From the NCBI RefSeq assembly GCF_038066715.1, contig NZ_JBBUKT010000007.1:62001-126000 (forward strand): a stretch of DNA of 64,000 bases, written 5' to 3'. This DNA comes from Luteolibacter sp. Y139. GTDB taxonomy: Bacteria > Verrucomicrobiota > Verrucomicrobiia > Verrucomicrobiales > Akkermansiaceae. The notes beneath the pieces are model-generated. The model was not told the origin of the DNA. It did not search any database and saw only the letters and a program-made list of their open reading frames with translations. The position numbers were made by a program, and so were the translations under genes. This document shows, piece after piece, positions 5,451 through 50,815 of the stretch (positions are counted from its first letter, which is position 1; each line of letters starts with the position of its first letter).

Positions 5451-5627
5451 CCGTGGTGGCCGTGGCGGAGGAAAGGGGATTTCGCGCTTGATGAATCCGC
5501 GTGTGACGAGTCTGTCACCGGGGTGAAACGATTTTAGGCTAAACCTCTTGTCCTCTGCCGGGCGTATCTAATGCCGGGCCTTCGGCTTCGTTTTACCTCC
5601 GGCCGTTTGCCCCAGCCGCCTTTCTGC
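5451..5627. promoter_or_regulatory. Divergent promoter region with short inverted repeat
   Basis: A 177-base gap between two divergent genes, so at least two promoters must lie here. It contains GTGAC-N6-GTCAC (5503-5518), which could be a dimeric regulator site. The spacing is not that of a CRP site. No -10/-35 pair can be assigned with confidence. Confidence 0.3.
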
Positions 5628-8600
5628 ATGAAAAAATCCACCGTCTACCGTTGCGCCGCGTTGTTGTGGGCAGCAACGCTGCCTCTTTTCGCCCAGCAGC
5701 ACGGGCTTACCTCCCGGCCGGATGTGGATGCCTATTACGACGGCACTTTTCCGACCACGCCGCCGGCGGTGCCGGGGAATTGGTCCACGGTGATCGCGTT
5801 TCCGAACCTAACCTTCCTCAACCCCGTGGGCCTCGCGCCGGTCCCGGGGACGAACAAATTGATCGTGTGGGAGCGCGATGGGAAGATCTGGACCTTCGAC
5901 AACAACGCGGCGACCACGACGAAGACGCTCGTCGTCGATCTTTCCTCAAACGTCCAAGGCTGGGATGACTCCGGTTTGCTGGGGTTGGCGCTTCACCCGG
6001 ACTTTCAGAACAACCACCAGATGTACATCTGGTACAATTGGCGTGGCGGCATCACCGGTGGCGCTGGTGACCTCGGTCCGGTGATTGGCGATGCCAATAC
6101 CCGTCCGCCGACCGCGACGCCGACCCGCGACCGGCTCTCTCGCTTCGTGCTCGATGCGAACCTGCAGACCACCAAGGCCAGCGAGTACGTGGTGATCGAT
6201 CAGCAGGATGCGAGCGTCTGGCACAATGGCGGCGGGATGTTCTTCCATCCGCAGAATGGCTTCCTCTACATCACCAATGGCGACGACCAAGACTCCGCGC
6301 TCAATACGCAGCGCAATGATCGTGCGCTCTTCTCCTGCGTGATCCGCATCGATGTGGACCAACGCGGCGGTGCGATCAGCCATGCGCCGACCAAGCGTCC
6401 GGTGAATGAAGTCAGTCCGACTTGGCCGCGCTACTATGTGCCGAATGACAATCCCTTCGTCGGTCAACCGAATGCGCTGGAGGAAATGTTCGCGATCGGT
6501 TTGCGCAGCCCGCACCGCATGACCATCGACCCGGTGACCGGGCGGATTTTCATCGGTGATGTCGGGAATGGTGCGCGGGAGGAAGTCAGCGTGATCGAGC
6601 CGAATGATCCGCCGGGGCTGAACTTCCAGTGGGCCACGATTGAAGGGAAGGGTGGGGATCTCACTGGATCATACATCGGGACCAGCAAGGGGCCCATCAT
6701 CGACTACGCGCATTCGTCGCAGGACGGGAGCTGTGTGGTGGGCGGCTATGTTTACCGGGGCACTGAGTTTCCCGAGCTCTACGGGAAATACATTTTCGGC
6801 GACAACATGAGCGGCATCATCTGGTACCTCGATGAGTCGGTCAGCCCGGCGGCGAAGGTGACACTCGCGGTGCTGCCGGATGGTCCGGGGCCGAACTCGG
6901 GCAACGACTACCGTGGTCTCGGCTCCTTCGGTCTCGATGCGAATCGCGAACTCTACATGTGCCGGCTGAGCAGCACGGAAGGGCGGATCTACAAGCTCCA
7001 GCGGGGTGGGCCGCCGCCGGGATCGCCTTTGCCGGCGACTCTGGGTGCGACCGGCTTGTTCAGCAATCTCGCGGCCCTGACGCCTGATGCTCGGTTGATC
7101 CCGTATCAGCTCAATGAACCCTTCTGGTCGGACGGCGCGATCAAGTCGCGGTTCGCGGCGATTCCGAATGGAACCACGGTGGGCTTCCAGCCCACGGGCG
7201 AGTGGAGCTTTCCCCATGGTTCCGTCTTGGTGAAGCACTTCGATCTGCCGGTCAGCGACGTCGATCCGAATGCGAAGCGCAGGCTCGAAACGCGCGTGAT
7301 CGTGAAGCAGGATGATGGCGAGGTGTATGGGGCGACTTACAAGTGGCGCGCCGACCAGAGCGATGCGGATTTGCTGGATGGCAGCCTGACTGAAAACATC
7401 TCGATCGCCACCGCGCCGATCGGCTCCTTTACCAGCCAGGACATCGGTGGTCCGGCCTTGGCGGGATCGACTGTTAGAAACGGCAATGCGATCACGATCA
7501 CCGCAGGTGGCACGGATATCTGGGGAACGAGCGATCAATTCCACTACGCGCACCAGCAGCGCACTGGAGACTTCGATGTCGCGGTGCGGATCGAGAGCGT
7601 GGTGCAGTCCGATCTTTACACGAAAACGGGCCTGATGGTCCGCGACTCGCTCGCGGCGAATGCCCGTCACGTGATGGCGCTGGTTTTCCCGAGCAATGCG
7701 GCGCGTAACAACAATACCGGCGGCTACGAGTTCCAGTATCGTGCGACCACCGGCGGGAGTGCCACTGCGCTCTATCCTGCGGCTCCGCAGCCGAAGGTGA
7801 ACTATCCGGATACCTGGCTGCGGATGCGACGTGAGGGTGACACCTTCATCGCTTACTGGAGTTCGGATGGCTTCACGTGGGCCGAGTACCAGCGGACCAC
7901 GCTTGATTTGCCGGATCAGGTTTACTTCGGCCTGGCAGTCACGGCGCACACGGCCTCGCCGACGACGGTGGCGAAGTTCCACGTCGATACCCGCCGGCAG
8001 CCGTGGTACTTCCCGAGCCGGCAGGACTGCCTGCGTTGCCACAATCCGCAGTCGGGCGGTGTGCTCGGGCCGAGCACGCGGCAGTTCAATCGCGAGATGC
8101 TGTTCCCCAATGGTGTCACCGACCAGCAGCTCAGCGCGTGGAGCCATGTGGGTCTCTTCGACCATGGCCCCGAGGATGCGGAGCTGCCGGGATTGCAAAA
8201 GCTCTCCCATCACAACGACACCAGCGCCTCACTGCAAGAGAGGGCCCGCTCGTATCTGGATGCGAATTGCTCCTATTGCCACCGGCCGAATGGCGTGCAT
8301 GCCTTGTGGGATGCGCGCTATTTGACGCCTTTCCAAGACCAGGGGATTTATTACGGCCCGGTTCTCAATTCGCTCGGGAATCCCAATGCCCGCGTCGTGG
8401 TGCCGCAAAGCTTGAACGACTCGATCCTGCATCATCGCATCAGCATCACGGGCGAGAACCAGATGCCGCCGCTGGGACGGAACATGGTCGACAAGGATGG
8501 CGTGGCCATGCTGGAGGCGTGGATCAATTCGCTGCCGGAAGAGAACGTGACGCCGCCGGCAACGCTCGTGGCGACCGCCGTGTCGAACACGCAGGTGAAT

Positions 8601-11180
8601 CTGACGTGGCAGGATCTTTCCAGCAACGAGGCCGGCTTTTCGATCGAGCGGTCGCTCGATGGCGTGAGCTTCACCTCGCTGGCGATCGTGGGGCCGGGCG
8701 TGACCTCATATAGCGACATTACCGCGGAGCCGTTTCAGACGAACTCGTACCGGGTGATGGCATTCGGCGAGTATGTTTATTCCACGCCGTCGAACATCGC
8801 GTCAGCGACGGCGAATGTCGGACCGCCAGCGCCGGAGATCCGGCTCACGGGAAATGGGATCGACATCTCCAACAACGACCTCACGCCCAGTGCCGCGGAT
8901 GGGACGGACTTCGGCGTTTCCACGCCGGGCACCGGCAACGTGACGCGGACCTTCACGATCCAGAATCTGGGCAATTTGCCGCTCAATCTAACGGGATCGC
9001 CACGGGTCCGCATCCAAGGGACGGATGCTTCGTCGTTCAGCGTTTCGGCGCAGCCTCCGGCCAGCCTGACGGGTCCGGGCAGCACGAATATCCAGATCGT
9101 TTTCGCGCCGCAGGGCTATGGCGCCAAGAATGCCACGGTGGTGATCGCTTCCAATGATGCGAGCGAGCCGGTCACGACATTTGCGGTCACCGGCGTCGGG
9201 CTTGATGATGGGATTGTCGCGTGGTGGCGCTTCGATGATGCCAGTGGTGGGACTGCGGCGGATGCCACGGGTTTCGGTCGCACCGGCACGCTGACCGCGC
9301 CCTTGCCACAGTGGCAGGCGAGCGGGCAGATCGGCGGTTCGCTGCGTTTCACCGGCGAGGTCAACCAGAGCGTGACGGTGGCGAACCACGCTTCGCTGAA
9401 TCCCACCGCGGCGATCTCGATTTCGGCATGGGTGTATTCGTCTGACTGGGCGAGCAACCGGCGCGTGCTCCAGAAGGGCGATGCTGACAACCAGTACCGC
9501 CTGCTCATCGAGGGCGGCAAGCTGGTCTGGGAGATTGCGAACGTCGGCGAGATCCAGGCTCCGCTGCCGCCGTTGAACCAGTGGTTCCATCTCGCCGCGA
9601 CCTACGACGGCGCGCGGATGCGCGTCTTTGTCAATGGAGTGCAGACCGGCGTGCTCGCCGCGACCGGTGCGATTCCGGTGACTGCCGATGCCATGTATCT
9701 TGGCACCAAGACGCCTGCGGCGACGGCGGGCGATCATCTCAACGGCTCGCTGGATGACGTGCGTGTTTACAATCGCGCACTGAAGGTCACTGAGATCGGC
9801 GTCCTCGCCGGACTGGATCTATCAGACAATCTGATCGGCTGGTGGAAGCTCGATGAAACGAGCGGCACCAACGCCGCGGACTCCAGCGGGGCGGGGCTCT
9901 CGGGCACGCTGACCACGCCGCTGCCGCAATGGCAGGCGAGCGGTGGTCGCTTGGGCGGGGCGCTTCTTTTCACGGGGCAGTCCGGACAGAGCGTGACGGT
10001 TGCGAATACCGCCTCGCTCAATCCAACGACAGCGATTTCCGTCAGTGCCTGGGTGAATGCCACGGCCTGGAGCGGCAACAACCGCATCCTGCAAAAGGGA
10101 AATACCGACAATCAATATCGCCTGCTCGCCGAGAACAGTAAGTTCGTTTGGGATATTTCGGGCGTAGGCCGCCTGGAGACGGCGCTGCCGCCGGTCAATC
10201 AGTGGGTGCATGTGGCGAGCACGTATGATGGCGACCGCATGGTGCTTTACTTCGATGGCGTGGAGGTTGGTTCGATTGCCGCGACGGCCGCGGTGCCGGT
10301 AACCGCCAATCCACTCTATTTCTCGACGAAGACTCCGGCTTCGGGCGCCGTGAATCACCTGAACGGCAAGCTGGATCAGGTCCGGCTCTATGGGCGCGCA
10401 TTGAGTGCGGCAGAAGTGACGCAGCTCGCCCTCGAAGGGAATACCGTTTCGATCGCGGTTGGCGATGCCACGGCCCGGAAGGGTACTGGCGACACGGGTC
10501 TTTTCACCGTGAGCCGCACGGGCCCGACCACTGCGGCATTGAGTGTTCCGTTCTTCCTCAGTGGCAGCGCGATGACAGGCCTGGACTTCTCGCTCAATCC
10601 CGCGTTGGAGGGTTTCGCGATTCCTGCAGGGCAGAGCTCGGCGAATCTGCTCGTCCAGCCGATCGACTCCGCCTCGGTCACGGGACCGACGACGGTGACG
10701 CTCGCGCTTGGCAACGTGCCGGGCTATCTGCAGGGAAATGCCAGCTCCACCGTGACGATCCAGGACTCGCCGCTCAATGACTGGAAGATCGCGGCTTTCG
10801 GTGGTCTTGCCGGGGCGCAGGCTGCGGGCGCGGCCGATAGTGCGGACGCGGACGGCGATGGTCTCGATACCTTGCTAGAGGCAGCGCTTGGCGGCAGTCC
10901 AACGGCATCCGATGCCGGACGTTTGCCGGTGGAGGAAGTGGAGCTGGTGGATGGACAGCTTTACCTCACCTCAACCTATGTCAGGCCGAAGCCGGCGCTG
11001 GCGGGGATCTCCTATGTTCATCGTAGGTCGATGACGCTGGGAGACTGGGATCTCGCGGTGATGGTTAGCGGCTATCCGGTCGACAATGGCAACGGCACTG
11101 AAACGGTGAAGATCCGCACGGCCTTGCCGGTCGGGGGGCAGCCGAAGCAGTTCCTGAAGCTGGAGATCACGAGGCCGTGA
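5628..11180 (+). CDS. Giant secreted sugar-dehydrogenase-like di-haem protein with LamG and Calx-beta domains
   Basis: An exported 1850-residue protein. The start is the ATG at 5628, which gives a clean signal peptide (MKKSTVYRC...LPLFAQQ); an in-frame ATG 57 bases upstream would add a non-signal extension. Order: a six-bladed glucose/sorbosone-dehydrogenase propeller (about 40-460); an SO2930-like region (LNEPFWSDGA) interrupted by a DUF1349-like beta-sandwich (about 605-788); two haem c sites, CLRCH (801-805) and CSYCH (881-885); a fibronectin III domain (about 975-1065); an ASH/choice-of-anchor D domain (about 1070-1190); two tandem LamG domains (about 1195-1605); Calx-beta (about 1606-1715); and a tail with a DADGDGLDTLLE calcium-type loop ending in QFLKLEITRP. 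It probably oxidises sugars in the periplasm or at the cell surface and passes electrons to its haems. Substrate and cofactor (PQQ?) are inferred. Confidence 0.88.
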   Translation: MKKSTVYRCAALLWAATLPLFAQQHGLTSRPDVDAYYDGTFPTTPPAVPGNWSTVIAFPNLTFLNPVGLAPVPGTNKLIVWERDGKIWTFDNNAATTTKTLVVDLSSNVQGWDDSGLLGLALHPDFQNNHQMYIWYNWRGGITGGAGDLGPVIGDANTRPPTATPTRDRLSRFVLDANLQTTKASEYVVIDQQDASVWHNGGGMFFHPQNGFLYITNGDDQDSALNTQRNDRALFSCVIRIDVDQRGGAISHAPTKRPVNEVSPTWPRYYVPNDNPFVGQPNALEEMFAIGLRSPHRMTIDPVTGRIFIGDVGNGAREEVSVIEPNDPPGLNFQWATIEGKGGDLTGSYIGTSKGPIIDYAHSSQDGSCVVGGYVYRGTEFPELYGKYIFGDNMSGIIWYLDESVSPAAKVTLAVLPDGPGPNSGNDYRGLGSFGLDANRELYMCRLSSTEGRIYKLQRGGPPPGSPLPATLGATGLFSNLAALTPDARLIPYQLNEPFWSDGAIKSRFAAIPNGTTVGFQPTGEWSFPHGSVLVKHFDLPVSDVDPNAKRRLETRVIVKQDDGEVYGATYKWRADQSDADLLDGSLTENISIATAPIGSFTSQDIGGPALAGSTVRNGNAITITAGGTDIWGTSDQFHYAHQQRTGDFDVAVRIESVVQSDLYTKTGLMVRDSLAANARHVMALVFPSNAARNNNTGGYEFQYRATTGGSATALYPAAPQPKVNYPDTWLRMRREGDTFIAYWSSDGFTWAEYQRTTLDLPDQVYFGLAVTAHTASPTTVAKFHVDTRRQPWYFPSRQDCLRCHNPQSGGVLGPSTRQFNREMLFPNGVTDQQLSAWSHVGLFDHGPEDAELPGLQKLSHHNDTSASLQERARSYLDANCSYCHRPNGVHALWDARYLTPFQDQGIYYGPVLNSLGNPNARVVVPQSLNDSILHHRISITGENQMPPLGRNMVDKDGVAMLEAWINSLPEENVTPPATLVATAVSNTQVNLTWQDLSSNEAGFSIERSLDGVSFTSLAIVGPGVTSYSDITAEPFQTNSYRVMAFGEYVYSTPSNIASATANVGPPAPEIRLTGNGIDISNNDLTPSAADGTDFGVSTPGTGNVTRTFTIQNLGNLPLNLTGSPRVRIQGTDASSFSVSAQPPASLTGPGSTNIQIVFAPQGYGAKNATVVIASNDASEPVTTFAVTGVGLDDGIVAWWRFDDASGGTAADATGFGRTGTLTAPLPQWQASGQIGGSLRFTGEVNQSVTVANHASLNPTAAISISAWVYSSDWASNRRVLQKGDADNQYRLLIEGGKLVWEIANVGEIQAPLPPLNQWFHLAATYDGARMRVFVNGVQTGVLAATGAIPVTADAMYLGTKTPAATAGDHLNGSLDDVRVYNRALKVTEIGVLAGLDLSDNLIGWWKLDETSGTNAADSSGAGLSGTLTTPLPQWQASGGRLGGALLFTGQSGQSVTVANTASLNPTTAISVSAWVNATAWSGNNRILQKGNTDNQYRLLAENSKFVWDISGVGRLETALPPVNQWVHVASTYDGDRMVLYFDGVEVGSIAATAAVPVTANPLYFSTKTPASGAVNHLNGKLDQVRLYGRALSAAEVTQLALEGNTVSIAVGDATARKGTGDTGLFTVSRTGPTTAALSVPFFLSGSAMTGLDFSLNPALEGFAIPAGQSSANLLVQPIDSASVTGPTTVTLALGNVPGYLQGNASSTVTIQDSPLNDWKIAAFGGLAGAQAAGAADSADADGDGLDTLLEAALGGSPTASDAGRLPVEEVELVDGQLYLTSTYVRPKPALAGISYVHRRSMTLGDWDLAVMVSGYPVDNGNGTETVKIRTALPVGGQPKQFLKLEITRP
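9213..10436 (+). repeat. Tandem duplication of a LamG domain (about 207 codons per unit)
   Basis: Unit 1 spans about 9213-9819 and unit 2 about 9834-10436, both inside the giant secreted protein. They align along their whole length, with shared stretches such as PQWQASG, QSVTVAN, SLNPT and LQKG(D/N)(A/T)DNQYRLL. DNA identity is still visible (for example, both contain TGGCAGGCGAGCGG), which indicates a fairly recent in-frame duplication. Confidence 0.85.
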
Positions 11181-17300: not shown

Positions 17301-18424
17301 TCAGCGAACTGATCCTCAGGGGCAAAGCCGCGGAGTTCGGTGGTGAGATCAAGGCGAACGACAAGTGGATTGCCGTCACGGCTTCGGGTTCATTCGCAGG
17401 CTCCAGCCAGAAGTCGACGGGGATCGTGATGGTCTTTGATGCGGTCTCGTTGAAGCCGGTCTTCACGAAGTCGACCAAGGGTGAAGGCTTCGGCTACGCG
17501 ATCGGGTTGAGTCATGACCGGCTGTTCGTTTCCGCGCCGGGTGCGAAATACCAGAAGATGTACAGCGTCGGTTTGATCCGCGCCTATTCGCTGCCGAAGG
17601 GCAAGCAACTTGGCACGATCATGGCGCGGCAGCCGAAGGCGCTGGAAAGCTTCGGTGCGTATCTCGATGCGAGCGATTCGGTGCTGGTGATCGGCGGTGT
17701 CCACGATCCGGTGAGCCTCTCGGCTGCCTTGCAAGTTCACTCATCGGCGAGCCTGGGCTTCCTCGGCTATTATTCCATGCCCGGTGACCCATTCGCTTAC
17801 TCGATCGTCAAAGCTCACGGTGACTGGATCATCGGTTCCGAACAGGCCATGCGCTTTTTCCTCGCGGACAATCCGCGACCGATTGCCAGCCGCGGGATTG
17901 TCGATCCCGGTGGACTCACCTTGCCGTTTCCCTACTTTTCCCGCTCCAATCTGGCTGCCTACGGTGACGCTCTCTACTGGGCTGACTATGCGCCCAAGAT
18001 GCTGGAGATGCCTGAGAAGCCCGCTGCGCCATCGGTGGCGGCCGCTGGCCGGGCTCCGGCGGTCACGGAGCCGGTATCGCCGGATGCGAACGGCGACGGC
18101 GTGGTCAACGAGATCGACATGCTGATCTTCCATCGTGGGGATACCAGCCTGCCAGCCCGTGCGACACTGGAACAAAGGGGAGCAAGCGGTCCGGTCTTTC
18201 GTATCGTGGCCGACGACAAGATTCCCGCGAACCTGGACCTGTGGTTCGAGGTCTCGACCGATCTCAGCCGATGGGAACCTGTCCTCGAATGGCGGCACGA
18301 CGATCGCGGTTGGCGGGATGCGGCGGGTGAGAAACTCACCGCGGGGCCGGATTCCCTGACGGAGTCGGAGATTCGCGCTACTTCGGGCAAGGTCTTCTTC
18401 CGGACGCGCGCGACGAGCCGGTGA
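14318..18424 (+). CDS. Large secreted propeller/Calx-beta/FG-GAP protein
   Basis: 1368 residues. The ATG at 14318 gives the signal peptide (MNRCRMFLRVAAILCLSFLSLRA); an ORF extension of 31 codons upstream is unlikely. Residues about 40-360 look like propeller blades; about 364-457 is a Calx-beta domain (SGSAMEGSDFAPW, EPNEFFEVSI); a second propeller-like region follows (about 470-850). Near 928-1140 are FG-GAP-type repeats (GHALGVSGNKVIVGAPSEKG, GYAIGLSHDRLFVSAPGAKY), as in integrin-type propellers. The C-terminus has one dockerin/EF-hand-like loop (DANGDGVVNEID) and ends with an FEVSTDLSRWEPV strand and FFRTRATSR. It is probably a surface or secreted binding protein of unknown ligand. Confidence 0.82.
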   Translation: MNRCRMFLRVAAILCLSFLSLRADDLGVRFPLETRGGKWAGYEPVDENLNSNLQSILKHGDVIRVGRTQWLALNRKTGVSDLASRPAFPQAQESIACDADSGVFWTRPSGTPTTGPYFVRDWTSGEKLGELTLPTNVYPGYFDAHGMASINGQILYVTDSMGPNPRQATLASLGVSAGEIDVTGCENWLAISYRAPSNYRVVILNRATLQVMGNYVRGGTAVAMRGNLLAWKSGLVVSLFRLPDLTPISGVPVLSPTQYGAVDFRLVENGLWVHQELQTQEGSVFLHYDLSNLPAVRLRERVTPPGVMLPYWTKSVRWVAAEDYLGMIDDAETLWVWNRNVANTSYQPLLDLEASQEGHEGGSAQARLTISDPVSWPVQVTLKARSGSAMEGSDFAPWMQTVTIPAGETSALVDVPVLADTVLEPNEFFEVSIQQVSGALAQNDSAPLVIAGNGYNLEANPQKIAGGKAKWTGVLGSNGRVLVGMIQPEPLTTGVSPGMAIVDMETGNIIANPSGSSWPPNFYKIAFRENLVVVVADSGLVAYRTDTGASVGSWYLSSNSFIGMVDTTKVLVRASFSNGIELRRISDGALLASASLPSDATVAVSQDARDGSPSSIHAYAYGGGILERVKYNRIIEFDRNTLAATERAVWRSSDQDGGDYAKILNVWEDKVFLSVPHGLSVVNRTTGKPVWSRYTATSGLDDFGCVISGNAVALTNLFTGTVESSQTTYFVDLETGCDIERFGPLDLSPEGQWIGANALAYDGGWVLVSRNRSFRVVKTPDRPNVKIVAPAIADNEVTTLRVVPREGFAGTYPVRISEYAEITEDRPVKDRLLGLVPVDLNVDADGVDFTVAATRSAKGSETTFLRAAAPGRETLFSGARGVVVNSHVITIPSSAFTTGGPLRITRARAVAAGEGLLAVGYPLELMPDGIRAGLVDIYDREGGTFLRTIGAPAGAEGKRFGHALGVSGNKVIVGAPSEKGVGRTFAYDGTTGTLISELILRGKAAEFGGEIKANDKWIAVTASGSFAGSSQKSTGIVMVFDAVSLKPVFTKSTKGEGFGYAIGLSHDRLFVSAPGAKYQKMYSVGLIRAYSLPKGKQLGTIMARQPKALESFGAYLDASDSVLVIGGVHDPVSLSAALQVHSSASLGFLGYYSMPGDPFAYSIVKAHGDWIIGSEQAMRFFLADNPRPIASRGIVDPGGLTLPFPYFSRSNLAAYGDALYWADYAPKMLEMPEKPAAPSVAAAGRAPAVTEPVSPDANGDGVVNEIDMLIFHRGDTSLPARATLEQRGASGPVFRIVADDKIPANLDLWFEVSTDLSRWEPVLEWRHDDRGWRDAAGEKLTAGPDSLTESEIRATSGKVFFRTRATSR

Positions 18425-21717: not shown

Positions 21718-22353
21718 TCAAGCGACGCCGCGTGCCCGGGCAAGTGATAGCAGTTCGGCGGTATTGGACGCACCGAACTTCGCCATCACATTCGCGCGGT
21801 GGAATTCCACGGTGCGCAGGCCGATGCCGTAGAAGTCGGCGATCTCGCGGCTGGTCTTGCCGGTGATGATCTGGCTGAGCACTTCCTGTTCGCGGCGTGA
21901 GAGGATCTTTCCCAGCGCTTCCGCCTTGGCTCCTTCACGGCTGATCACCTCGGCAAAGCGCGCCGAGAAGAAGGGACGGCCATCGGCCACTGTGGTCATC
22001 GCCTTCTCCAACAACTCGGGCTGGGTGTCTTTTTCCAAATAGCCTTCCACGCCGCTTTCACGCACGCGAGTCAGGGTGAGGGGATCCATCAGCGAGGAAA
22101 GAATGAGCACCCGCGCTTGGGGGCGGGCCTGACGCGCGACGCGCGCGAACTCCAGCCCATCCATGCCCGGCAGTTGCAGATCCACGATCATTAACTCGGG
22201 GCGAGTGGTGTCGAGCAGCGGCAAGGCGTCCTCCGCTGAGGCCACGGATCCGACGAGTTGGAAGCGGGGATATGGTGCCAGCCAAGTCTCCATGAATGCG
22301 CGGAAGATCCCTTGGTCTTCGACCAAAAGAGTGCGCGTTCGGGGAGGGTTCAC
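21718..22353 (-). CDS. NarL/FixJ-type response regulator
   Basis: 211 residues from a GTG start at 22353, which begins the protein directly before the receiver strand TLLVEDQG; a longer upstream frame would run into the kinase gene. The receiver has phospho-acceptor Asp58 in LMIVDLQLPGMDG, then SSL and a Lys near GYLEKD. The C-terminal LuxR-type helix-turn-helix starts at LSRREQEVL with TSREIADFYGIGLRTVEFHR. It lies 10 bases after the histidine kinase gene, so the two form a two-component operon. Its targets are unknown. Confidence 0.92.
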   Translation of the reverse strand: MNPPRTRTLLVEDQGIFRAFMETWLAPYPRFQLVGSVASAEDALPLLDTTRPELMIVDLQLPGMDGLEFARVARQARPQARVLILSSLMDPLTLTRVRESGVEGYLEKDTQPELLEKAMTTVADGRPFFSARFAEVISREGAKAEALGKILSRREQEVLSQIITGKTSREIADFYGIGLRTVEFHRANVMAKFGASNTAELLSLARARGVA

Positions 22354-22363
22354 GGCCCGGACC

Positions 22364-24382
22364 CTAGTTTTCCGCGCGTGGCAAAGTAAACGAAATCCCG
22401 GTGCCGCCGCCAGCCGGGTCTTCGGCTTCCAATCTGGTGCCGAGCGCCTGGGCAATCTCCAGGCATAGCCGCAGGCCCAGCCCGCTGCGGGAATTCCCGA
22501 GGGGCAGTGGCACGGCCGGATCCCTTAGGCTGGCGATCACGGATTCGGGCAGGCCGGGACCATCGTCTCTCACGCTGATGCGGACCAGGTCCGACGCGGA
22601 GACGCTGACAGTGATCCTGCTGCGTGCCGATTTCACGGCGTTCGAGACCAGATTTCGCACCAAGGTCTGGGCCAGCACTAGATCGGTATGGACGCGTGGT
22701 GCATGCCCGTCTTCATCTAACAAGAGTTCCACGCTGCGTCCCGAAGCGTTGCCGCGGTGAAGGTCCACCATCGGCCGCACCACGCTTCCGGCGGCATGCT
22801 CCGCGAGCCTCACGGTTCCGGCGCGGAGGCGGGTCCAGAGCAGCACGTCTTCCAGCAGGAGCAGGATCGCTTTTCCGGTCTGTGCCACCTCTGTCGCGAA
22901 GTCGGGCCGTGTGGCGGCACCATTTCCTGCGGCTTGTTCCGCGGAGAGGGTCAGTGCTGTCAGGGGACTGCGCAGGTCGTGTCCCAACACGGTGATCATG
23001 CGGTTCTTGTCGGCATCGGCGGCCACCAGTTCGTGAGTGCGCGAGCGGACTTCATGCTCCAGTTCATCGGCATAGGCTTCCTGGATCTGGTGGCGGCGCT
23101 CGGCTTCTTCCATCGCGAGGGCCTGAGCTGCGAGCTTGTCGCGCTGGAGGCGTGCGAAGCGTTCGCCGAGGGCCATCGAGAGCAGCATGATTTCCAGGGC
23201 GGAGCCCAGCATCACCGCGCGGCAGATGGTTTCGATCGGTGCATTCCTCAGCAGCACGACCAGCGGCACCAGACCCGCGAGGAGCAAGCCGGAGAGCAGC
23301 ACGAAGTTCCGTGACTGCCAGCCGACCGAGCGCCACACGACGACGGCGGCTCCCAGGAGCGCGATATGGGCAAGCGCCCCGATCGCCACGATGGCCTGTA
23401 GCCAATCGGCATGGCCGGTGGTCACGGCCAGCAGTGCTGCCACGGGAAGCACGCCAAGCAAGGTGGCAGCACCGCGCACGGTGCGATCCGCGCGTGGTGC
23501 TTGCTCCGGTAGTTCGAGAAGATGGCGCGCGAAAGTCGCAAGGAATGCGCCGCTCAGAGGCAAGGCCATGGCGCCGATGGTCTCCATCCACGGTGAACCC
23601 AGAGGAAGCCCGAGCACCGATACCCCGCTGCGGACTCCGAAGATGTAGAGGATGTAAAAGGCGAGGTAGAGAAGGTAGTAGCCCGTGGTGGGAAAACGCA
23701 GCCGCAGCCACACGATGGAGTGGTAGAGCAGCAAGGCTAACAGCGTGCCGAAGTAGAAGCTTTCCGCGATGAGATCGCGCTGCATCGCCGTGTGGAAGTC
23801 TATCGCGTCCGGCCACCAGCCGGGTTCCAACCAGAGGGCAACGGAATCCTGATAGTGCAGGTAGATCACCCGTGATCCCTGCGGTGGCAAGGTGAGGGGA
23901 AAGGCGGTTTCGCGTCCTTGGATTGCCTTGCTTGCGGGCGATGTCCATTCACCGGAGACCTGGTGCAGCCATCCACCGGGTGTGCCCGCTTTAGGATCGC
24001 GCTCCTTGTCCGCGGGCGAGAAGAGGTCGACGCGGTCGGCGTAGCGAACGAGGTCCGCGAGCACTCCGGCCTGCGGTGATGGATCGGGATTGTGCAGGAT
24101 GATTCTCACCCAAGCGCTGCTAGGACCCCGCTCGCGGATGAAGCCGGGCTTTTTCCACGGTTTCCATGCGCTGTCTGGTAGAGCAGCGATCGCGGCTGGG
24201 TCTGGGTTTGCAGCGGCCACTGTGTCTTCCAGCACTACCACCTCCGCTTGTGGAGAGCCGGCCAGCGGCAGCATGCCCTTGGGGTGTCCCGAGAAGCCGA
24301 GCAAGAGCCAGCCTAACAAGGTCGCTGCAAGCGCCAGCAGGGCGGCCGAAGGTTGCCAGTCGAGTGAGCGCGGGAAGGGCAC
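22364..24382 (-). CDS. 7TMR-DISM sensor histidine kinase
   Basis: 672 residues. One membrane helix (about 13-31) is followed by a periplasmic 7TMR-DISM extracellular domain (about 45-190) with the pattern SSAWVRIILHNPD. A seven-helix membrane block comes next (about 205-395: ESFYFGTLLALLLYHSIVW ... FGVRSGVS). A coiled-coil linker leads to the dimerisation domain with phospho-acceptor His468 in VLGHDLRSPLTAL. The ATPase domain has an N-box (NLVSNAVKSA, about 580) and a G-box (RDDGPGLP, about 605). DISM extracellular domains resemble carbohydrate-binding folds, so a sugar or diffusible small molecule is a reasonable but unproven signal. It is followed by its regulator after 10 bases. Confidence 0.93.
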   Translation of the reverse strand: MPFPRSLDWQPSAALLALAATLLGWLLLGFSGHPKGMLPLAGSPQAEVVVLEDTVAAANPDPAAIAALPDSAWKPWKKPGFIRERGPSSAWVRIILHNPDPSPQAGVLADLVRYADRVDLFSPADKERDPKAGTPGGWLHQVSGEWTSPASKAIQGRETAFPLTLPPQGSRVIYLHYQDSVALWLEPGWWPDAIDFHTAMQRDLIAESFYFGTLLALLLYHSIVWLRLRFPTTGYYLLYLAFYILYIFGVRSGVSVLGLPLGSPWMETIGAMALPLSGAFLATFARHLLELPEQAPRADRTVRGAATLLGVLPVAALLAVTTGHADWLQAIVAIGALAHIALLGAAVVVWRSVGWQSRNFVLLSGLLLAGLVPLVVLLRNAPIETICRAVMLGSALEIMLLSMALGERFARLQRDKLAAQALAMEEAERRHQIQEAYADELEHEVRSRTHELVAADADKNRMITVLGHDLRSPLTALTLSAEQAAGNGAATRPDFATEVAQTGKAILLLLEDVLLWTRLRAGTVRLAEHAAGSVVRPMVDLHRGNASGRSVELLLDEDGHAPRVHTDLVLAQTLVRNLVSNAVKSARSRITVSVSASDLVRISVRDDGPGLPESVIASLRDPAVPLPLGNSRSGLGLRLCLEIAQALGTRLEAEDPAGGGTGISFTLPRAEN

Positions 24383-24525: not shown

Positions 24526-27500
24526 ATGACTGTCACCCGCACCCACCTGCTGGCCCTTGCTGCCTTGGCCAGCCCCGCCGCTCCGCTGCATGCGATCGTC
24601 TACAGCGCGAACCAGAACAACACGAACTCCTACGATACCACCGGCACCACCCTCACGCTGGACGCACCTGGCGCTGGCGCTGAGGCCACCCAGAGCGGGG
24701 TGATCTACGGCAGTGGCGGTATTCTCAAGTCGCAGGCGGGCACCCTGCATCTCACCGCGCAGAATACCTTCACCGGAGGCACGAGAGTCATCTATGGAAT
24801 CCTCTCCCTCGACAACCCCAGCAACGGCGGCATCGGCACGATCCGTGGCAATGTGCTCGTGAATGCTTCCGCCGGGATTCTCCAGACGGGAGCCCCGAAT
24901 GCGCTCGGTTGGATCACCGGGCAGAAGGTCGACAGGATCGATCTGGTCAACGGGACCGTGATCAACACCGCCAGCGGCGACCAAGGCTGGGGAGTCACCT
25001 ACACGATGGAGGGCAACAGCATGATCAGCTCGAACAACGGCCACAACGACCCCAACGCCAATGTTCCCACCGCTCCGTCCCGCTTCTCCTTCGGTGGACC
25101 TGCCGGCGGTAATAGCAGCCTGACGGTGAGCGGCGGCACTGCGGGATCGGTCGCGAGGGCCTATGGCCGGATCGACCTGCGCTCGGACAATGGCAATACT
25201 GCGGCCACCTTCAATATAGGGCTCTTCGCCAGCAACAACACCCCCGCATGGCTGGATTGCTATGCGTGCCTCACCGGAACCGCGGGCCTCACCAAGACCG
25301 GCGCAGGGACCCTGAATCTGTATGGGACCAATACGCACACTGGAGTGACTACGCTGAACCAAGGGGTCATCACCGTGAACAAGTCCGGCCCGGGAGGCAC
25401 CGGCGGCATCCGCTCGCCGCTCGTGATCAATGCCGGGCGCATGGACCTGAACGCGGTGAACGCGATGGGATACCTCCCCGGCGAGAAGGTGGATAGCGTT
25501 ACTTTGAATGCAGGACTGATCAACTCCACGGCGGCGGGTGACCAGGGTTGGGGCGTGGCTTACACGCTGAATGGCGGAGAGATCCGCACCAACAATGGTG
25601 TGGCCGATCCGAATGCCCCGGGCAAGTTCGCCTGCGGCAATTATACCACCTTCACCGTCCCGGCCGGTGCCGCGCCGCACATCAGCGGGCGCATGGACTT
25701 GCGCGACCTGCTGAATCCCAACACCGACATCACGGTGGGAGCGAATGGCAACCTGATCGTGGATGCCGCGGTCACCAACAGCGGCGGGATCAGGAAGTTC
25801 GGCCCGGGCACGCTCACATTCAACGCCGCGAACACCTTCACCGGCACTCTAACTATTACGGAAGGTGTCGTAGTGGCGGGCGGCTCCAGCATTTCCGGCA
25901 GCACGGTGAACAATACCCAGCTCATCTTCCAATCCGGGGGCACTAGTCCCGGCGCGATCTCCGGCCCCGGCACGGTCAAGAAGACCGGCGGTGACACGGT
26001 GGTGTTAACGGGAACGAACACCTACACCGGCGGCACCACGATCGAGAGCGGCTGGATCTCGATCGCGTCGAACGCGAATCTCGGCGCGGACAATATCCCT
26101 CTCACCCTGGCTGGCGGCGGCCTTGCGACCACCGCAGACCTGACACTCACGCGCCCCCTCAGCATCACTGGCACGGGCACGCTCACTCCTTCCTCCGGCA
26201 CGCTCACGCTGAATAGCATCATCTCCGGCACCGGCTCACTCCAGAAGACCGGGGCCGGGGTGCTCAAGATCAACTCGATCCAGACCTACACCGGCACCAC
26301 CACGGTTCAGGATGGCAAGCTTCTCTTGGCCACCTCCTCGGGTGGGACTGGAGCGATCCGCGGCAATCTCGTGGCTAACCAAGGCAGCGTCATCGAACTC
26401 TCCGATGCCGGTGCACTCGGGCAGAGCATCGGGACCGATAACGTTTCGCTCTATGGTGCCACCATGACCAACACCAGTGGCAGCGCCATCATGCTCCCGT
26501 ACTATACGACGCTTGCCGGTGGCACCCTCAGCTCGAACGGCGGGACCACCAGCCCCACCGCAGCTTCCCGCTTCATTTCCAGAAGGACGATCGGGGCAAG
26601 TGGCGGCGCCAAGACCTCGACGATCGCGGGAAGGCTGGAGCTTCAGAATGGAGCTGCCTTCGATGTGAACACTCTCGCCACCCTCAACGTCACGGCCACC
26701 GTCACCTCCGGTGATGATGTGGTGGAAGTCGTGAAGGACGGCTGGGGAACACTGAACCTCCCCGCCCAAAACACCTACAAGGGTGCGACCCGGATCAACC
26801 ACGGCACCTTGGAAGTGAGTTATCCCCACAGCCCCACCTACTACCTCCACGGCAACAGCTTGGCCGATGCTTCCCACCTGCATCTCCGTGGCAACAGCGT
26901 GATGAGCAACGGCACCGGGACTCCCCAGAACCTCTTCCTGGATAATTTCAGCTACATCTATTTCTACGACAACGCCTCCGCCGGAGCAGCCAACTATAGC
27001 CTGGGGCCACTCACCGGCACGAGCTTCGAGAATTCATCCACCGCCGGCTCGGCAAACTTCACGGTCGGCAATGGCTCGAGCCTGGGCTTGCAAGCCAGTG
27101 CCAATGCCGGCAGCGCCACCATCACCCTGCTTGCGGGCGGAGACTTCGATTCCTTCGCCACGGCCGGTCCCACCGCCAGCGGCGCGAAGGTGATCAGCCA
27201 AGCGGGAGGCGATGTCCGTGCCTTCGCTCCGCTGTCCATCGGCTCGCTCAACGGGAGTGGCACTTTGCAGACGGGCAGCTCCAAGGTGACGCTCGGTGCG
27301 CTGGGGCTGGACGATGTCTTCTCGGGCATCACCGATGGCACCGGCTCGCTGGAGAAGACCGGCAGCGGCACGCTCACGCTTTCGGGAGCCAACGTCTACA
27401 GCGGCGGCACCACGATCTCCAGCGGCAAGCTGCTGGCGTCTAACAGCAGCGGCTCCGCGCTGGGCAGCGGCGCGGTCTCCGTGAGCAGCGGTGCCACGCT

Positions 27501-28257
27501 CGGCGGCTATGGCAGCATTGGCGGAGCCACCACGCTCCAAGGCGGTGCGCATCTCGCGCCGGGCAACCCGACCGGGACCTTGAAGTTCACAAATGGCCTC
27601 ACGCTGAATGGCGGCTCGGTTCTGGACTTGCAGCTTGGCTCACCCGCCACGGATCTCGTCCGCGTTTCCGCCGGAGCCCTCACCGGCCCGGCTTCCGGCA
27701 AGATCACGGTGAACCTCTTGAATGCCGGTGGCTTCTCCGGGGGAACCTACACGCTCATCGATGCCAGCGGTGCGACCCTGTCGAATCTCACTGCGAACTC
27801 CTTCATCCTCGGAACCACGCTTCCCGGCTACAACTACTCCTTCGTGGTCACGGGCTCCCTGATTCAACTCAGCGTGATCCCCACGGATCCCTACGAGGCC
27901 TGGAGCCTCAGCATCCAGGATCCCGCCCAGCGTAGCCGCACGGCGGATCCAGATGGCGATGGCTTCAGCAACCTGATGGAGTATCTCTTCGGAACCTCGC
28001 CGATCCTCGCGAATGGATCCCTCTGCAGCAGCGAGGTGACTGCGGAAGGCCTTCTCCTCCGTTGGCTGCAGCGAAGCTCCGGGGCTAGCTATCAGCTCCA
28101 GGAGAGCAGCGACTTGTCCAATCCCTGGCCCACGAGCGCGCTGCCTGTCATCAATGGCGATCAGAGCGGGGTTCCACAGGATTACACCCGTAAGCAGGCG
28201 GTCGCACCTTTGGTCGGCGGACGAAAATTCTTCCGCATCCAAGGAGTGGAAAACTGA
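24526..28257 (+). CDS. Autotransporter-type beta-strand repeat protein
   Basis: 1243 residues with signal peptide MTVTRTHLLALAALASPAAPLHA. Seven copies of the passenger-type repeat (consensus G-x-L-x-K-x-G-x-G-T-L-x-L-x-x-x-N-T-x-T-G-G-T-T-x-x-x-G-x-L) lie near residues 63, 254, 420, 484, 571, 734 and 942. Between them a longer module with IRGNL(V/L) and (S/A)GDQGWGV(T/A)YT occurs two to three times. The C-terminus has GGTYTLIDASG, then a calcium-type loop DPDGDGFSNLMEYLFG and a final strand KFFRIQGVEN. No outer-membrane beta-barrel domain follows, so export is not classical type V secretion. The predicted structure is a long beta-helix on the cell surface. The gene is monocistronic. Confidence 0.88.
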   Translation: MTVTRTHLLALAALASPAAPLHAIVYSANQNNTNSYDTTGTTLTLDAPGAGAEATQSGVIYGSGGILKSQAGTLHLTAQNTFTGGTRVIYGILSLDNPSNGGIGTIRGNVLVNASAGILQTGAPNALGWITGQKVDRIDLVNGTVINTASGDQGWGVTYTMEGNSMISSNNGHNDPNANVPTAPSRFSFGGPAGGNSSLTVSGGTAGSVARAYGRIDLRSDNGNTAATFNIGLFASNNTPAWLDCYACLTGTAGLTKTGAGTLNLYGTNTHTGVTTLNQGVITVNKSGPGGTGGIRSPLVINAGRMDLNAVNAMGYLPGEKVDSVTLNAGLINSTAAGDQGWGVAYTLNGGEIRTNNGVADPNAPGKFACGNYTTFTVPAGAAPHISGRMDLRDLLNPNTDITVGANGNLIVDAAVTNSGGIRKFGPGTLTFNAANTFTGTLTITEGVVVAGGSSISGSTVNNTQLIFQSGGTSPGAISGPGTVKKTGGDTVVLTGTNTYTGGTTIESGWISIASNANLGADNIPLTLAGGGLATTADLTLTRPLSITGTGTLTPSSGTLTLNSIISGTGSLQKTGAGVLKINSIQTYTGTTTVQDGKLLLATSSGGTGAIRGNLVANQGSVIELSDAGALGQSIGTDNVSLYGATMTNTSGSAIMLPYYTTLAGGTLSSNGGTTSPTAASRFISRRTIGASGGAKTSTIAGRLELQNGAAFDVNTLATLNVTATVTSGDDVVEVVKDGWGTLNLPAQNTYKGATRINHGTLEVSYPHSPTYYLHGNSLADASHLHLRGNSVMSNGTGTPQNLFLDNFSYIYFYDNASAGAANYSLGPLTGTSFENSSTAGSANFTVGNGSSLGLQASANAGSATITLLAGGDFDSFATAGPTASGAKVISQAGGDVRAFAPLSIGSLNGSGTLQTGSSKVTLGALGLDDVFSGITDGTGSLEKTGSGTLTLSGANVYSGGTTISSGKLLASNSSGSALGSGAVSVSSGATLGGYGSIGGATTLQGGAHLAPGNPTGTLKFTNGLTLNGGSVLDLQLGSPATDLVRVSAGALTGPASGKITVNLLNAGGFSGGTYTLIDASGATLSNLTANSFILGTTLPGYNYSFVVTGSLIQLSVIPTDPYEAWSLSIQDPAQRSRTADPDGDGFSNLMEYLFGTSPILANGSLCSSEVTAEGLLLRWLQRSSGASYQLQESSDLSNPWPTSALPVINGDQSGVPQDYTRKQAVAPLVGGRKFFRIQGVEN

Positions 28258-48364: not shown

Positions 48365-50815
48365 TTAAGGAGCTTCTTCGATCCGATAGAACGCCTTCAC
48401 GGCGGGAGGTGTCGGATCGCTGAAGGTATGGATGGTGGCTCCCGTGACCGGACTGCCGACTGGCGAGAAACCGGTGAGATTCGTCCCGCGGGCAAGGACG
48501 TAGCTCTTCGAGAGGGTGAGGTTCGTCACGGTGAGTTCAAAGGCTGCGCCATTGAAACCAGATGAGATCACGACCGGAGCCGCGACTACCGGAGTGCTGG
48601 TCGCGTCCTTCGGATTGCTTCCGGCGGCAAGTTCGGCGGCATTGCTGAAGCCGTCACCATCCGGGTCGCCTGCACTGCCATTCACGCCGGTGCTGCTACG
48701 CGGGTCGAGGCGATTGGCCACTTCCCATGCATCGGGCAATGAGTCGCCATCGCTATCAAGCGAGTTCGGCACGGCAAGGATGCGGACATTGTCGAACATC
48801 ACGCGATCCCCACTGGCGTGACGGATGAAGACGACGAGATTGCCGGGAGGAGGCGTGCTGCCGGTGACCAGCGAAGCGGGACGGGCCAAGGAGCCGGTGC
48901 CGATCGTGGCCAGGCAGCTGGCATCCCGCAACTTGTTGATCACATTGTCGGCATCGGGATTTCCGGATGCGGTCAGTGCGCCGTTCTCATCGATCCGGCC
49001 GGTGTAGCCGGGGATCGCGGTGCCGATGGCATTGCTCGAGAAGAAGCCGAACTCGACGACTCCGGTCGGGTAGCCATTGCGATAGCCGCCGGCGAGGTCG
49101 ATCAAGTAGGTGGTGTTTGGCGCGAAGGCCACGCCGGTATCCTGATAGAGGTAGGCCCCGATTTCCTGGATGCCGGCATACTGGGCGCCCTGGCCCCCGG
49201 TCACTCCGATGGAAGTGAGGCTTTCCACGAAGGTGTCATTGGCAGCCGGTCCATTGACGAAGGTCCAACCGGTGGCGACCCCGTTGAAGAAGGTGCCGGG
49301 CGCTTCAGGAACTTCGAAGCTCGGATTGTTCACGGCCACGGTCGGCAGGTTCGAGCTGTCGAGCTTGGGATTCGTTCCAAGCAGGAACTCCCAGCGGTCG
49401 GTGGTGCCGTCGCCATCGGTGTCTGCCAGGTTGGGGTCGGTGCCGGAAGTGACACCCGCGACGTAGGCTACGTCGGGGTTCTCGTTGCCGTCGATGATGC
49501 CGTCGTTGTCGGTGTCCGCCTTGGTGGGGTCGGTGCCGGTGGCGGTGATGCCACCCCACGTGCCCGCCTTGTCTTCGACGAAGTCGTCATAGCCGTCGTG
49601 ATCGGTATTCGCATCGCGCGGATTGGTGCCGCGGATGAATTCGTCATAGTTGAGCAGGCCTTCGCCGTCCGGGTCGCCGTTCGGACCGTTGTTGGCATTC
49701 ACGGTGCCGTCGTCCAAGGGATTGAGCGAGTAGGTCACTTCCCAGCCATCCGGCAGCGAGTCGTCGTCAGAGTCCGGGTCCAGCGGGTTGGTTCCCGCGG
49801 CGGCTTCGCCGCCGTCGTTGAGCTTGTCGTCGTCGCTATCGGCGTCCTGCGGGTCGGTGCTGTTGATGCCGCCGTTGTATTCCTGGACGTTGGTCCGGCC
49901 GTCGCCATCGGGATCACCGCTGGCGCCGTTGTTGAAGACGATGCTGCCATTGTCGTTCGGGTTGAGGCCGTGGTTGATCTCCCAAGAGTCGGGCATGCCG
50001 TCGCCATCGCTGTCAGCAATCAATGGCGCGTTGGTGCCGATGATCTGGAAGCCATTGATCGGGCAGCGAAAGGGATTGGTTCCCGCTTCGTCCAGACGGA
50101 TGTAGAAGGAGCCGGCGGTCAGTCCGCTGAAGATGGTGTAGTTGCCAGCGCCACTGGCACCCGTGACGCGGGTGAAGGTGGGATTGGTGCCCCAGTTGGA
50201 GTTGTCGACGATGTCGATCCGGCTGGTGAGATCGGATCCGAGGCCAGGGTCTCCGTTCACGGGGTTGGCGGTATCGGCGTTTGCGAGCCACACCTTTGTC
50301 GCGCGATCACCTGCTGCGGAATCGCCATCCGCATAGATCACCACGCTGAAGGAGGTGAGTCCCTTGGCGGTCATCCAAGCATCGAGTCCCGTCACGAGGA
50401 TGGTCGGCTTGTCATCGTCGGTGCCGAAGACACCATTGAAAGCGTTGGTGATGGCCGCCCCGTTCGAGTCGAGGTAGCCTTTCATCAGCTTGTTGTTACC
50501 GCCGAGGGTTTCGTTGGCGTTGTTCGCCCAGATGCCGGTGGCGTCCCACTTGAGGGTCACGGCCGTGGTGGCTCCGGTGTTGTCGTTGAGGGCGACCGGG
50601 TTTCCCCAGCGGCCACGGTTGTTCCAGTTGACTTGTTCGTAGCCGGGGGCACCGGCGCTTTCGGCGGCGCCGAGAAGGTAGGCGGCATTTTCCGCGAAAC
50701 TGACGCCGATCGGGAAATCAGTGGCGCCAGCGAGTCCTCCGGAAAGCGCGAGGACATGGGAAATGGCGATGGTCAGTCGCCTCGGGGAATTATTCTTGGG
50801 TCGGGTTCGATTCAT
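48365..50815 (-). CDS. Secreted thrombospondin type 3 repeat protein
   Basis: 816 residues. The ATG at 50815 is selected because a signal peptide follows (a KNNSPRRLTIAIS stretch, then HVLALSGGLAGA); the longer upstream frame is non-coding. Residues about 270-500 hold a run of calcium-type TSP3 loops (DSDGDGMPDSWE, DPDGDGRTNVQE, DSDDDKLNDGGE, DSDDDSLPDGWE, DTDNDGIIDGNE, DTDGDGTTDRWE). After that comes a DUF642-like carbohydrate-binding-type region with NNPSFEVPEAPGTFFNGVATG, then two more loops and an AFYRIEEAP end. It is probably surface-located and calcium-stabilised, of unknown ligand. Confidence 0.86.
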   Translation of the reverse strand: MNRTRPKNNSPRRLTIAISHVLALSGGLAGATDFPIGVSFAENAAYLLGAAESAGAPGYEQVNWNNRGRWGNPVALNDNTGATTAVTLKWDATGIWANNANETLGGNNKLMKGYLDSNGAAITNAFNGVFGTDDDKPTILVTGLDAWMTAKGLTSFSVVIYADGDSAAGDRATKVWLANADTANPVNGDPGLGSDLTSRIDIVDNSNWGTNPTFTRVTGASGAGNYTIFSGLTAGSFYIRLDEAGTNPFRCPINGFQIIGTNAPLIADSDGDGMPDSWEINHGLNPNDNGSIVFNNGASGDPDGDGRTNVQEYNGGINSTDPQDADSDDDKLNDGGEAAAGTNPLDPDSDDDSLPDGWEVTYSLNPLDDGTVNANNGPNGDPDGEGLLNYDEFIRGTNPRDANTDHDGYDDFVEDKAGTWGGITATGTDPTKADTDNDGIIDGNENPDVAYVAGVTSGTDPNLADTDGDGTTDRWEFLLGTNPKLDSSNLPTVAVNNPSFEVPEAPGTFFNGVATGWTFVNGPAANDTFVESLTSIGVTGGQGAQYAGIQEIGAYLYQDTGVAFAPNTTYLIDLAGGYRNGYPTGVVEFGFFSSNAIGTAIPGYTGRIDENGALTASGNPDADNVINKLRDASCLATIGTGSLARPASLVTGSTPPPGNLVVFIRHASGDRVMFDNVRILAVPNSLDSDGDSLPDAWEVANRLDPRSSTGVNGSAGDPDGDGFSNAAELAAGSNPKDATSTPVVAAPVVISSGFNGAAFELTVTNLTLSKSYVLARGTNLTGFSPVGSPVTGATIHTFSDPTPPAVKAFYRIEEAP

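Follow-up and report, generated by a model that had tools for sequence, protein, structure and literature searches.

A recurrent C-terminal domain on putatively exported proteins of Verrucomicrobiota, a candidate localisation module

Why should proteins with otherwise different domains all end in the same way? The question is raised by a stretch of 64,000 nucleotides from Luteolibacter sp. Y139 (the window: positions 62001-126000 of contig 7, G000:C7, of a host genome of 7.1 Mb in 31 contigs). In it, a sequence-only reading had found four unrelated exported proteins, here P0001 to P0004, that close in a similar β-rich tail, and had proposed a sorting, anchoring or capping module of this lineage. 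The motifs it quoted are all present in the four translations where it had placed them, and its span of about 110 residues for the tail is right. The tail is a domain that ends 159 of the 169 distinct open reading frames examined for it in the host genome. We give slightly better than even odds (roughly 0.53) to the view that it is a lineage-specific C-terminal localisation module, like the C-terminal domain of the type IX secretion system (T9SS) in its working and perhaps linked to the exosortase envelope.

To judge the likeness of the four tails, we built a profile from 122 tails taken from other proteins encoded in the genome, excluding those of the window, and ran it on the whole window proteins. 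It matches P0003 (E 3.6e-13), P0001 (E 9.8e-12) and P0004 (E 2.6e-9), each at the extreme C-terminus; among 2000 shuffled versions of the four tails the best score is E 0.26. A profile of the last 72 residues alone still finds P0003, P0001 and P0004 with E 4.6e-7, 9.1e-9 and 1e-5 (best shuffle 0.56). The tails of these three proteins lie at 27901..28254 (P0003, plus strand), 10824..11177 (P0001, plus strand) and 48368..48721 (P0004, minus strand). P0002 is a borderline member, which fails this strict test with E 0.036 for loop and β part together and 3.6 for the β part only; its strong match to our first profile is disregarded because that profile had been built with the P0002 tail included. 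Its presumed tail (18068..18421, plus strand) has another type of loop, DANGDGVVNEID, which we take to be dockerin-like, and a diverged β part. The predicted structure shows a similar order of elements, at a predicted local distance difference test score (pLDDT) of only 76.5 and from an alignment built of presumed relatives. A shared tail is thus supported for three of the four proteins and not established by sequence for P0002.

The predicted structure of the P0003 tail (pLDDT 95.5) consists of a calcium-type loop (DPDGDGFSNLMEY, 27946..27984, plus strand), a short helix and a β-sandwich that reaches the C-terminus, into which the last strand extends. From its sequence the loop may bind calcium, and such binding may have a role in the tail. 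Fold matches of the model are weak and Ig/FnIII-like, structure comparison yielded no clear structural relative, and the profile matches in PDB, to a phage cementing protein and to discoidin domains of chitosanases, are weak leads only. The mean column identity among 126 aligned tails is 14%, and an F/Y/L-x-R motif lies within the last 30 residues of 131/159 tails, its arginine mostly 4-8 residues before the stop. Searches of the 126 tails against Pfam (E ≤ 0.01) gave no model beyond the loop, the only matches being TSP3_bac (16), F5_F8_type_C_2 (1) and Proteasome_A_N (1); curated Ig or fn3 models of Pfam matched 0/126. Neither Pfam nor NCBIfam, the two general family libraries searched, contains a model dedicated to the tail, and we found no description of it in the open-access literature, judged by title or start of abstract.

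For a census of the host genome, 150 of 398 first-look candidates were scored with a profile of 20 tails (A1). This gave 151 matches, 137 of which were taken, in 136 frames; of the 14 dropped, 13 were short matches to the loop within frames that the set already contained, and the other was not among the matches listed. The iterated profile matches 132 of the 136 frames, and 126 of them end in the domain, at most 15 residues from the stop. Among the ten others, four have no match, one (O092) ends 20 residues early, two (O064, O097) have a strong internal copy and three only weak internal matches; two of these three, O127 and O128, were truncated at the edge of the sequence retrieved and in fact bear the tail, being identical to the genes N016 and N004. 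A second profile (A2), built from the 126 C-terminal tails, was used to score 150 of 516 candidates, and all those listed match with E 5.8e-13 or better. It matches 35/35 further non-overlapping places, and in 33 of these the domain is C-terminal, the exceptions being N007, where it precedes a GH32 domain, and N015, where it ends 38 residues early. A2 was built from C-terminal tails, yet a profile carries no information on position in the protein. Together, the two sets make up the 159/169 given above; the true total is probably higher, because most first-look candidates were not scored. Five-fold cross-validation recovers 124/126 tails, against 0/126 reversed sequences, 1/1008 shuffled ones and 15/1421 inner pieces of 92 residues from the same proteins. 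The domain is therefore not equally frequent in the middle of proteins, one of the refuting conditions that the sequence-only reading had named, with strong internal copies in three frames.

The four window proteins were described as exported, and this agrees with the larger set. A simple rule finds a signal peptide in 109/126 bearers, and inspection by eye adds at least 11 of the 17 that it misses, so that most bearers are likely to be exported, as far as their sequences tell. The 126 passengers to which the tail is attached fall into 61 clusters at E 1e-20 and into 33 groups at E 1e-5, the largest of which (87) is presumably chained through repeat domains. A Pfam scan of 58 of the 126 proteins, in two batches, returned 67 + 19 families (25 of the 67 listed), and the passengers include sulfatase, subtilase, GDSL lipase, alpha-amylase, PhoD, phosphatases, sialic acid esterase, and autotransporter-associated (PATR) and Ig repeats. 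The description of the four window proteins as unrelated is borne out for P0002 and P0003; the passengers of P0001 and P0004 share one single-linkage cluster of 16 at E 1e-20.

Distribution among genomes and link to PEP-CTERM

A search with residues 1130-1243 of P0003 found at least 48 proteins, itself included, with PATR, Ig, esterase and GSDH domains as partners and with Haloferula and Luteolibacter as close named relatives. With the tail of a subtilase as query, at least 16 proteins were found, adding proteases and glycoside hydrolases. Among the matches listed, all relatives whose name gives a taxon are Verrucomicrobiota, and a scan of genome contigs for the loop pattern, confirmed against the P0001 tail, gave at least 32 loci, 31 with titles that we place in Verrucomicrobiota in the GTDB sense, which takes in Kiritimatiellales and Pontiellaceae, and one titled 'Bacterium'. 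As far as seen, the tail thus appears to be specific to this lineage, as the sequence-only reading had supposed. In closed frames of these loci, 33/34 domains are C-terminal; one open-frame match is not counted.

We surveyed 115 genomes of the phylum with A2, scoring at most 41 candidates in each. Matches at E ≤ 1e-5 occur in 76/115 genomes; since weak matches can be due to the loop alone, we require a best E ≤ 1e-10 for a clear tail, which leaves 52/115. In 20/20 regions fetched from 18 genomes, chosen among the listed top matches, the domain lies at most 8 residues from the stop.

Many Verrucomicrobiota are polysaccharide degraders, including gut Akkermansia. The tail protein fetched from one genome, presumably of Akkermansia (L174 in G113), combines a sulfatase with PA14 and BACON domains, and we consider it likely to be Amuc_0953 of A. 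muciniphila ATCC BAA-835, which the genome paper describes as a sulfatase with BACON on its C-terminus (PMC3048395). A gut Akkermansia sulfatase that ends in the tail would be relevant to mucin degradation.

The host genome has one exosortase and 30 PEP-CTERM matches at E ≤ 0.01. The two kinds of C-terminus are distinct: as far as fetched, 0/30 PEP-CTERM passengers of the host genome contain the tail domain, the PEP-CTERM model PF07589 matches 0/126 tails, and a membrane-like window (19 residues, mean hydropathy > 1.6) is present in 0/159. Still, they interchange on one passenger family. In two tandem pairs, L101 (G000:C5:367107-369531) and L104 (G000:C6:102886-105337), a protein that ends in PEP-CTERM comes before a paralogue that has the same passenger but ends in the tail. 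Given the start codons chosen, gaps of 14 and 16 bases separate the genes of the pairs, and their passengers are 27-32% identical over 121-143 residues (E 4e-9 and 1e-11). PATR proteins of the host genome end in the tail and one of them ends in PEP-CTERM. A PATR protein with PEP-CTERM, L173, matches many tail passengers, bearing in mind that PATR repeats match easily.

Across the 115 genomes, PEP-CTERM is present in 52/52 genomes with a clear tail versus 14/63 others, and exosortase (PF09721) in 51/52 versus 29/63. The single miss is G113, the presumed Akkermansia genome, and the A. muciniphila genome paper reports an EpsH (PMC3048395). Counted by family, PEP-CTERM is found in 18/18 versus 5/14 (p 7e-5), and with the cut-off set at 1e-8 or 1e-12 it is found in 54/55 versus 12/60 or 50/50 versus 16/65 genomes, respectively. 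Within the genus of G113, a clear tail occurs in 9/10 genomes with PEP-CTERM and in 0/4 without.

Possible roles of the tail

In genomes the tail behaves as sorting signals do, and like them it may be read by a machine. Judging from their signal peptides, the bearers would be exported by Sec. An envelope component would recognise the compact β-sandwich at their C-terminus, while it folds with calcium or afterwards, and would either carry the bearer over the outer membrane or retain it at the cell surface or within the exopolysaccharide layer; in one passenger family the tail would take the place of PEP-CTERM. Since the tails are nested in PEP-CTERM genomes, the receptor is suggested to belong to, or to depend on, the same exosortase/exopolysaccharide envelope. 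Recognition, transport and anchoring are all presumed in this scheme: of the proposed 'sorting, anchoring or capping module', the C-terminal position, the lineage as far as seen and likely export signals have held up, sorting and anchoring would be its inferred part, and capping is a competing explanation discussed below.

Several observations weigh against a localisation module tied to the exosortase envelope. Strong internal copies exist in three of the 169 frames, before DUF1800 (L134), near the N-terminus (L070) and before GH32 (L233); the first set alone has 21 internal matches at E ≤ 0.01, the strong ones being O064, O097 and, near the end, O092, and the other 18 being weaker (E 5e-5 to 0.01) and mostly confined to the loop. 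In L207, the exception among the loop-scan loci, the domain directly follows the signal peptide. The cut-off for clear tails was chosen after seeing the list, and at 1e-5 PEP-CTERM is present in 63/76 versus 3/39 genomes. LamG, taken as a control, is also associated (50/52 clear-tail genomes versus 47/63 others, p 1.6e-3), so that part of the link is general; phylogeny was handled at the family level only, and some influence of relatedness and genome size remains in these statistics. Further, all 48 of the 48 relatives found for one tail protein (O070, query included) keep the tail, and the swap with PEP-CTERM is therefore one between paralogues. For A. muciniphila, the main text of a paper on the outer membrane, as far as available, does not name Amuc_0953, and it reports most mucin-degrading activities, including GlcNAc-sulfatase, as higher in the intracellular fraction, which includes the periplasm.

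It also counts against this reading that no receptor, sortase or outer-membrane channel for the tail was identified. A scan for SprA of the T9SS matched 0/115 genomes and likewise not the host genome; it permits no conclusion either way, because the control was silent as well (0/14). Where the sequence-only reading had proposed to test for co-occurrence with a dedicated outer-membrane transport system, we found instead the nesting in PEP-CTERM genomes. T2SSK matched in 35/115 genomes and was set aside, its matches occurring also in B. subtilis and Lactococcus and many of them in frames of 700-1500 amino acids; they would be cross-matches to other helix-hairpin-helix proteins.

The explanation that competes best, although we hold it to be rather unlikely, is that the tail binds exopolysaccharide, lipopolysaccharide or another matrix sugar and so retains proteins near the cell or substrate, with no transport machine, in the manner of a C-terminal carbohydrate-binding module or dockerin. 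Binding modules usually occur at either end of proteins or internally, whereas the tail is C-terminal in all but ten of the 169 frames. Less probable again is a folding cap that closes long proteins rich in β-structure or made of repeats and protects them against proteases, its position being a structural need. The many bearers with PATR, Ig or LamG repeats would fit such a cap, as would the last strand reaching the C-terminus in the model; yet the tail also ends sulfatases, subtilases, lipases and phosphatases, and one passenger family includes a paralogue that carries PEP-CTERM in its place. We give little credence to a freely spreading domain without special function, added at gene ends by chance: its very high copy number and its strong variation between genomes would be expected, but fold and C-terminal motif are kept at low identity, as the cross-validation and the 14% column identity show, and strong internal copies are rare. 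That the tail is a diverged form of the T9SS C-terminal domain and is handled by a T9SS is very hard to credit in spite of the Ig-like sandwich of the RgpB domain (PMC4804311), as 0/126 tails match T9SS C-terminal-domain models of Pfam and NCBIfam at E ≤ 0.01 and SprA went unmatched in its uncontrolled scan. Both libraries contain such models.

If the tail is indeed a localisation module, one might go on to picture, as a tentative and rather doubtful extension, an undescribed outer-membrane export or surface-attachment pathway of Verrucomicrobiota that uses a folded C-terminal address domain, has more than 150 clients here and is tied to the exosortase/PEP-CTERM exopolysaccharide envelope, where PEP-CTERM proteins might form a surface scaffold for the docking of enzymes with the tail. 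To our knowledge, how Verrucomicrobiota place their very large exported enzymes has not been worked out. A single hidden Markov model of the tail would mark more than 150 proteins of the host genome as likely surface or extracellular proteins; the tail is also a ready tag for export tests, and its phylogenetic profile can be used to seek the receptor.

The window proteins and their neighbours

P0001 is encoded by a frame of 1869 amino acids (5571-11180) with GSDH, cytochrome-like, choice-of-anchor D and two LamG domains; a heuristic assigns it a likely signal peptide, MKKSTVYRCAALLWAATLPLFA, at 5628..5693 (plus strand). The frame of P0002 (14225-18424) has Calx-beta and FG-GAP matches, and P0004 (48365-51079) is a TSP3 repeat protein. 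P0003 (24526-28257) is a PATR repeat protein with no Pfam match to an autotransporter barrel; its likely signal peptide, MTVTRTHLLALAALASPAAPLHA, at 24526..24594 (plus strand), is again heuristic, with the end set by eye. Two signal-peptide proteins near P0003 (28273-29106 and 30325-31041) resemble, by eye, 3-keto-disaccharide hydrolases (DUF1080). Adjoining P0003 on the opposite, minus strand are a sensor kinase (22364-24382) and a response regulator of LuxR type (21718-22455), both also named by eye.

Comparison with known systems

By its sequence, the tail is neither a T9SS C-terminal domain nor PEP-CTERM nor a dockerin. With the T9SS C-terminal domain of Bacteroidota (RgpB type) it has in common that a C-terminal β-sandwich of about 100 residues or less sits on diverse signal-peptide proteins; it differs in matching no curated model, in the calcium-type loop in front and in the phylum. 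Type I dockerins are C-terminal modules with calcium loops found on many enzymes, as the tail is a C-terminal module with a calcium-type loop on many enzymes, but the tail is mostly β and has one loop, and the dockerin model matches neither the four window proteins (E ≤ 0.1) nor the 126 tails (E ≤ 0.01). The bacterial TSP3 repeat (PF18884) accounts for 16/126 tails with a loop model of 22 positions, which does not cover the β-sandwich. The Amuc_1099 family (NF042425) matches 25/126 tails, but is a model of 321 positions for a protein of a pilus-like system; on P0003, below its cut-off, it covers tail residues 12-35, which are the loop, and there is no sign that it covers the sandwich.

PEP-CTERM itself spans 24 residues, in which a Pro-Glu-Pro motif is combined with a membrane helix and a basic end (PMC1569441). 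The tail, in contrast, is a domain about 110 residues long, folded and not hydrophobic, and its proteins are much larger (median frame 1293 versus 282.5 amino acids). It nonetheless resembles PEP-CTERM with its exosortase in that each genome has numerous copies, which stand at the very C-terminus of varied proteins with signal peptides; the two also occur in the same genomes and change places on one passenger family.
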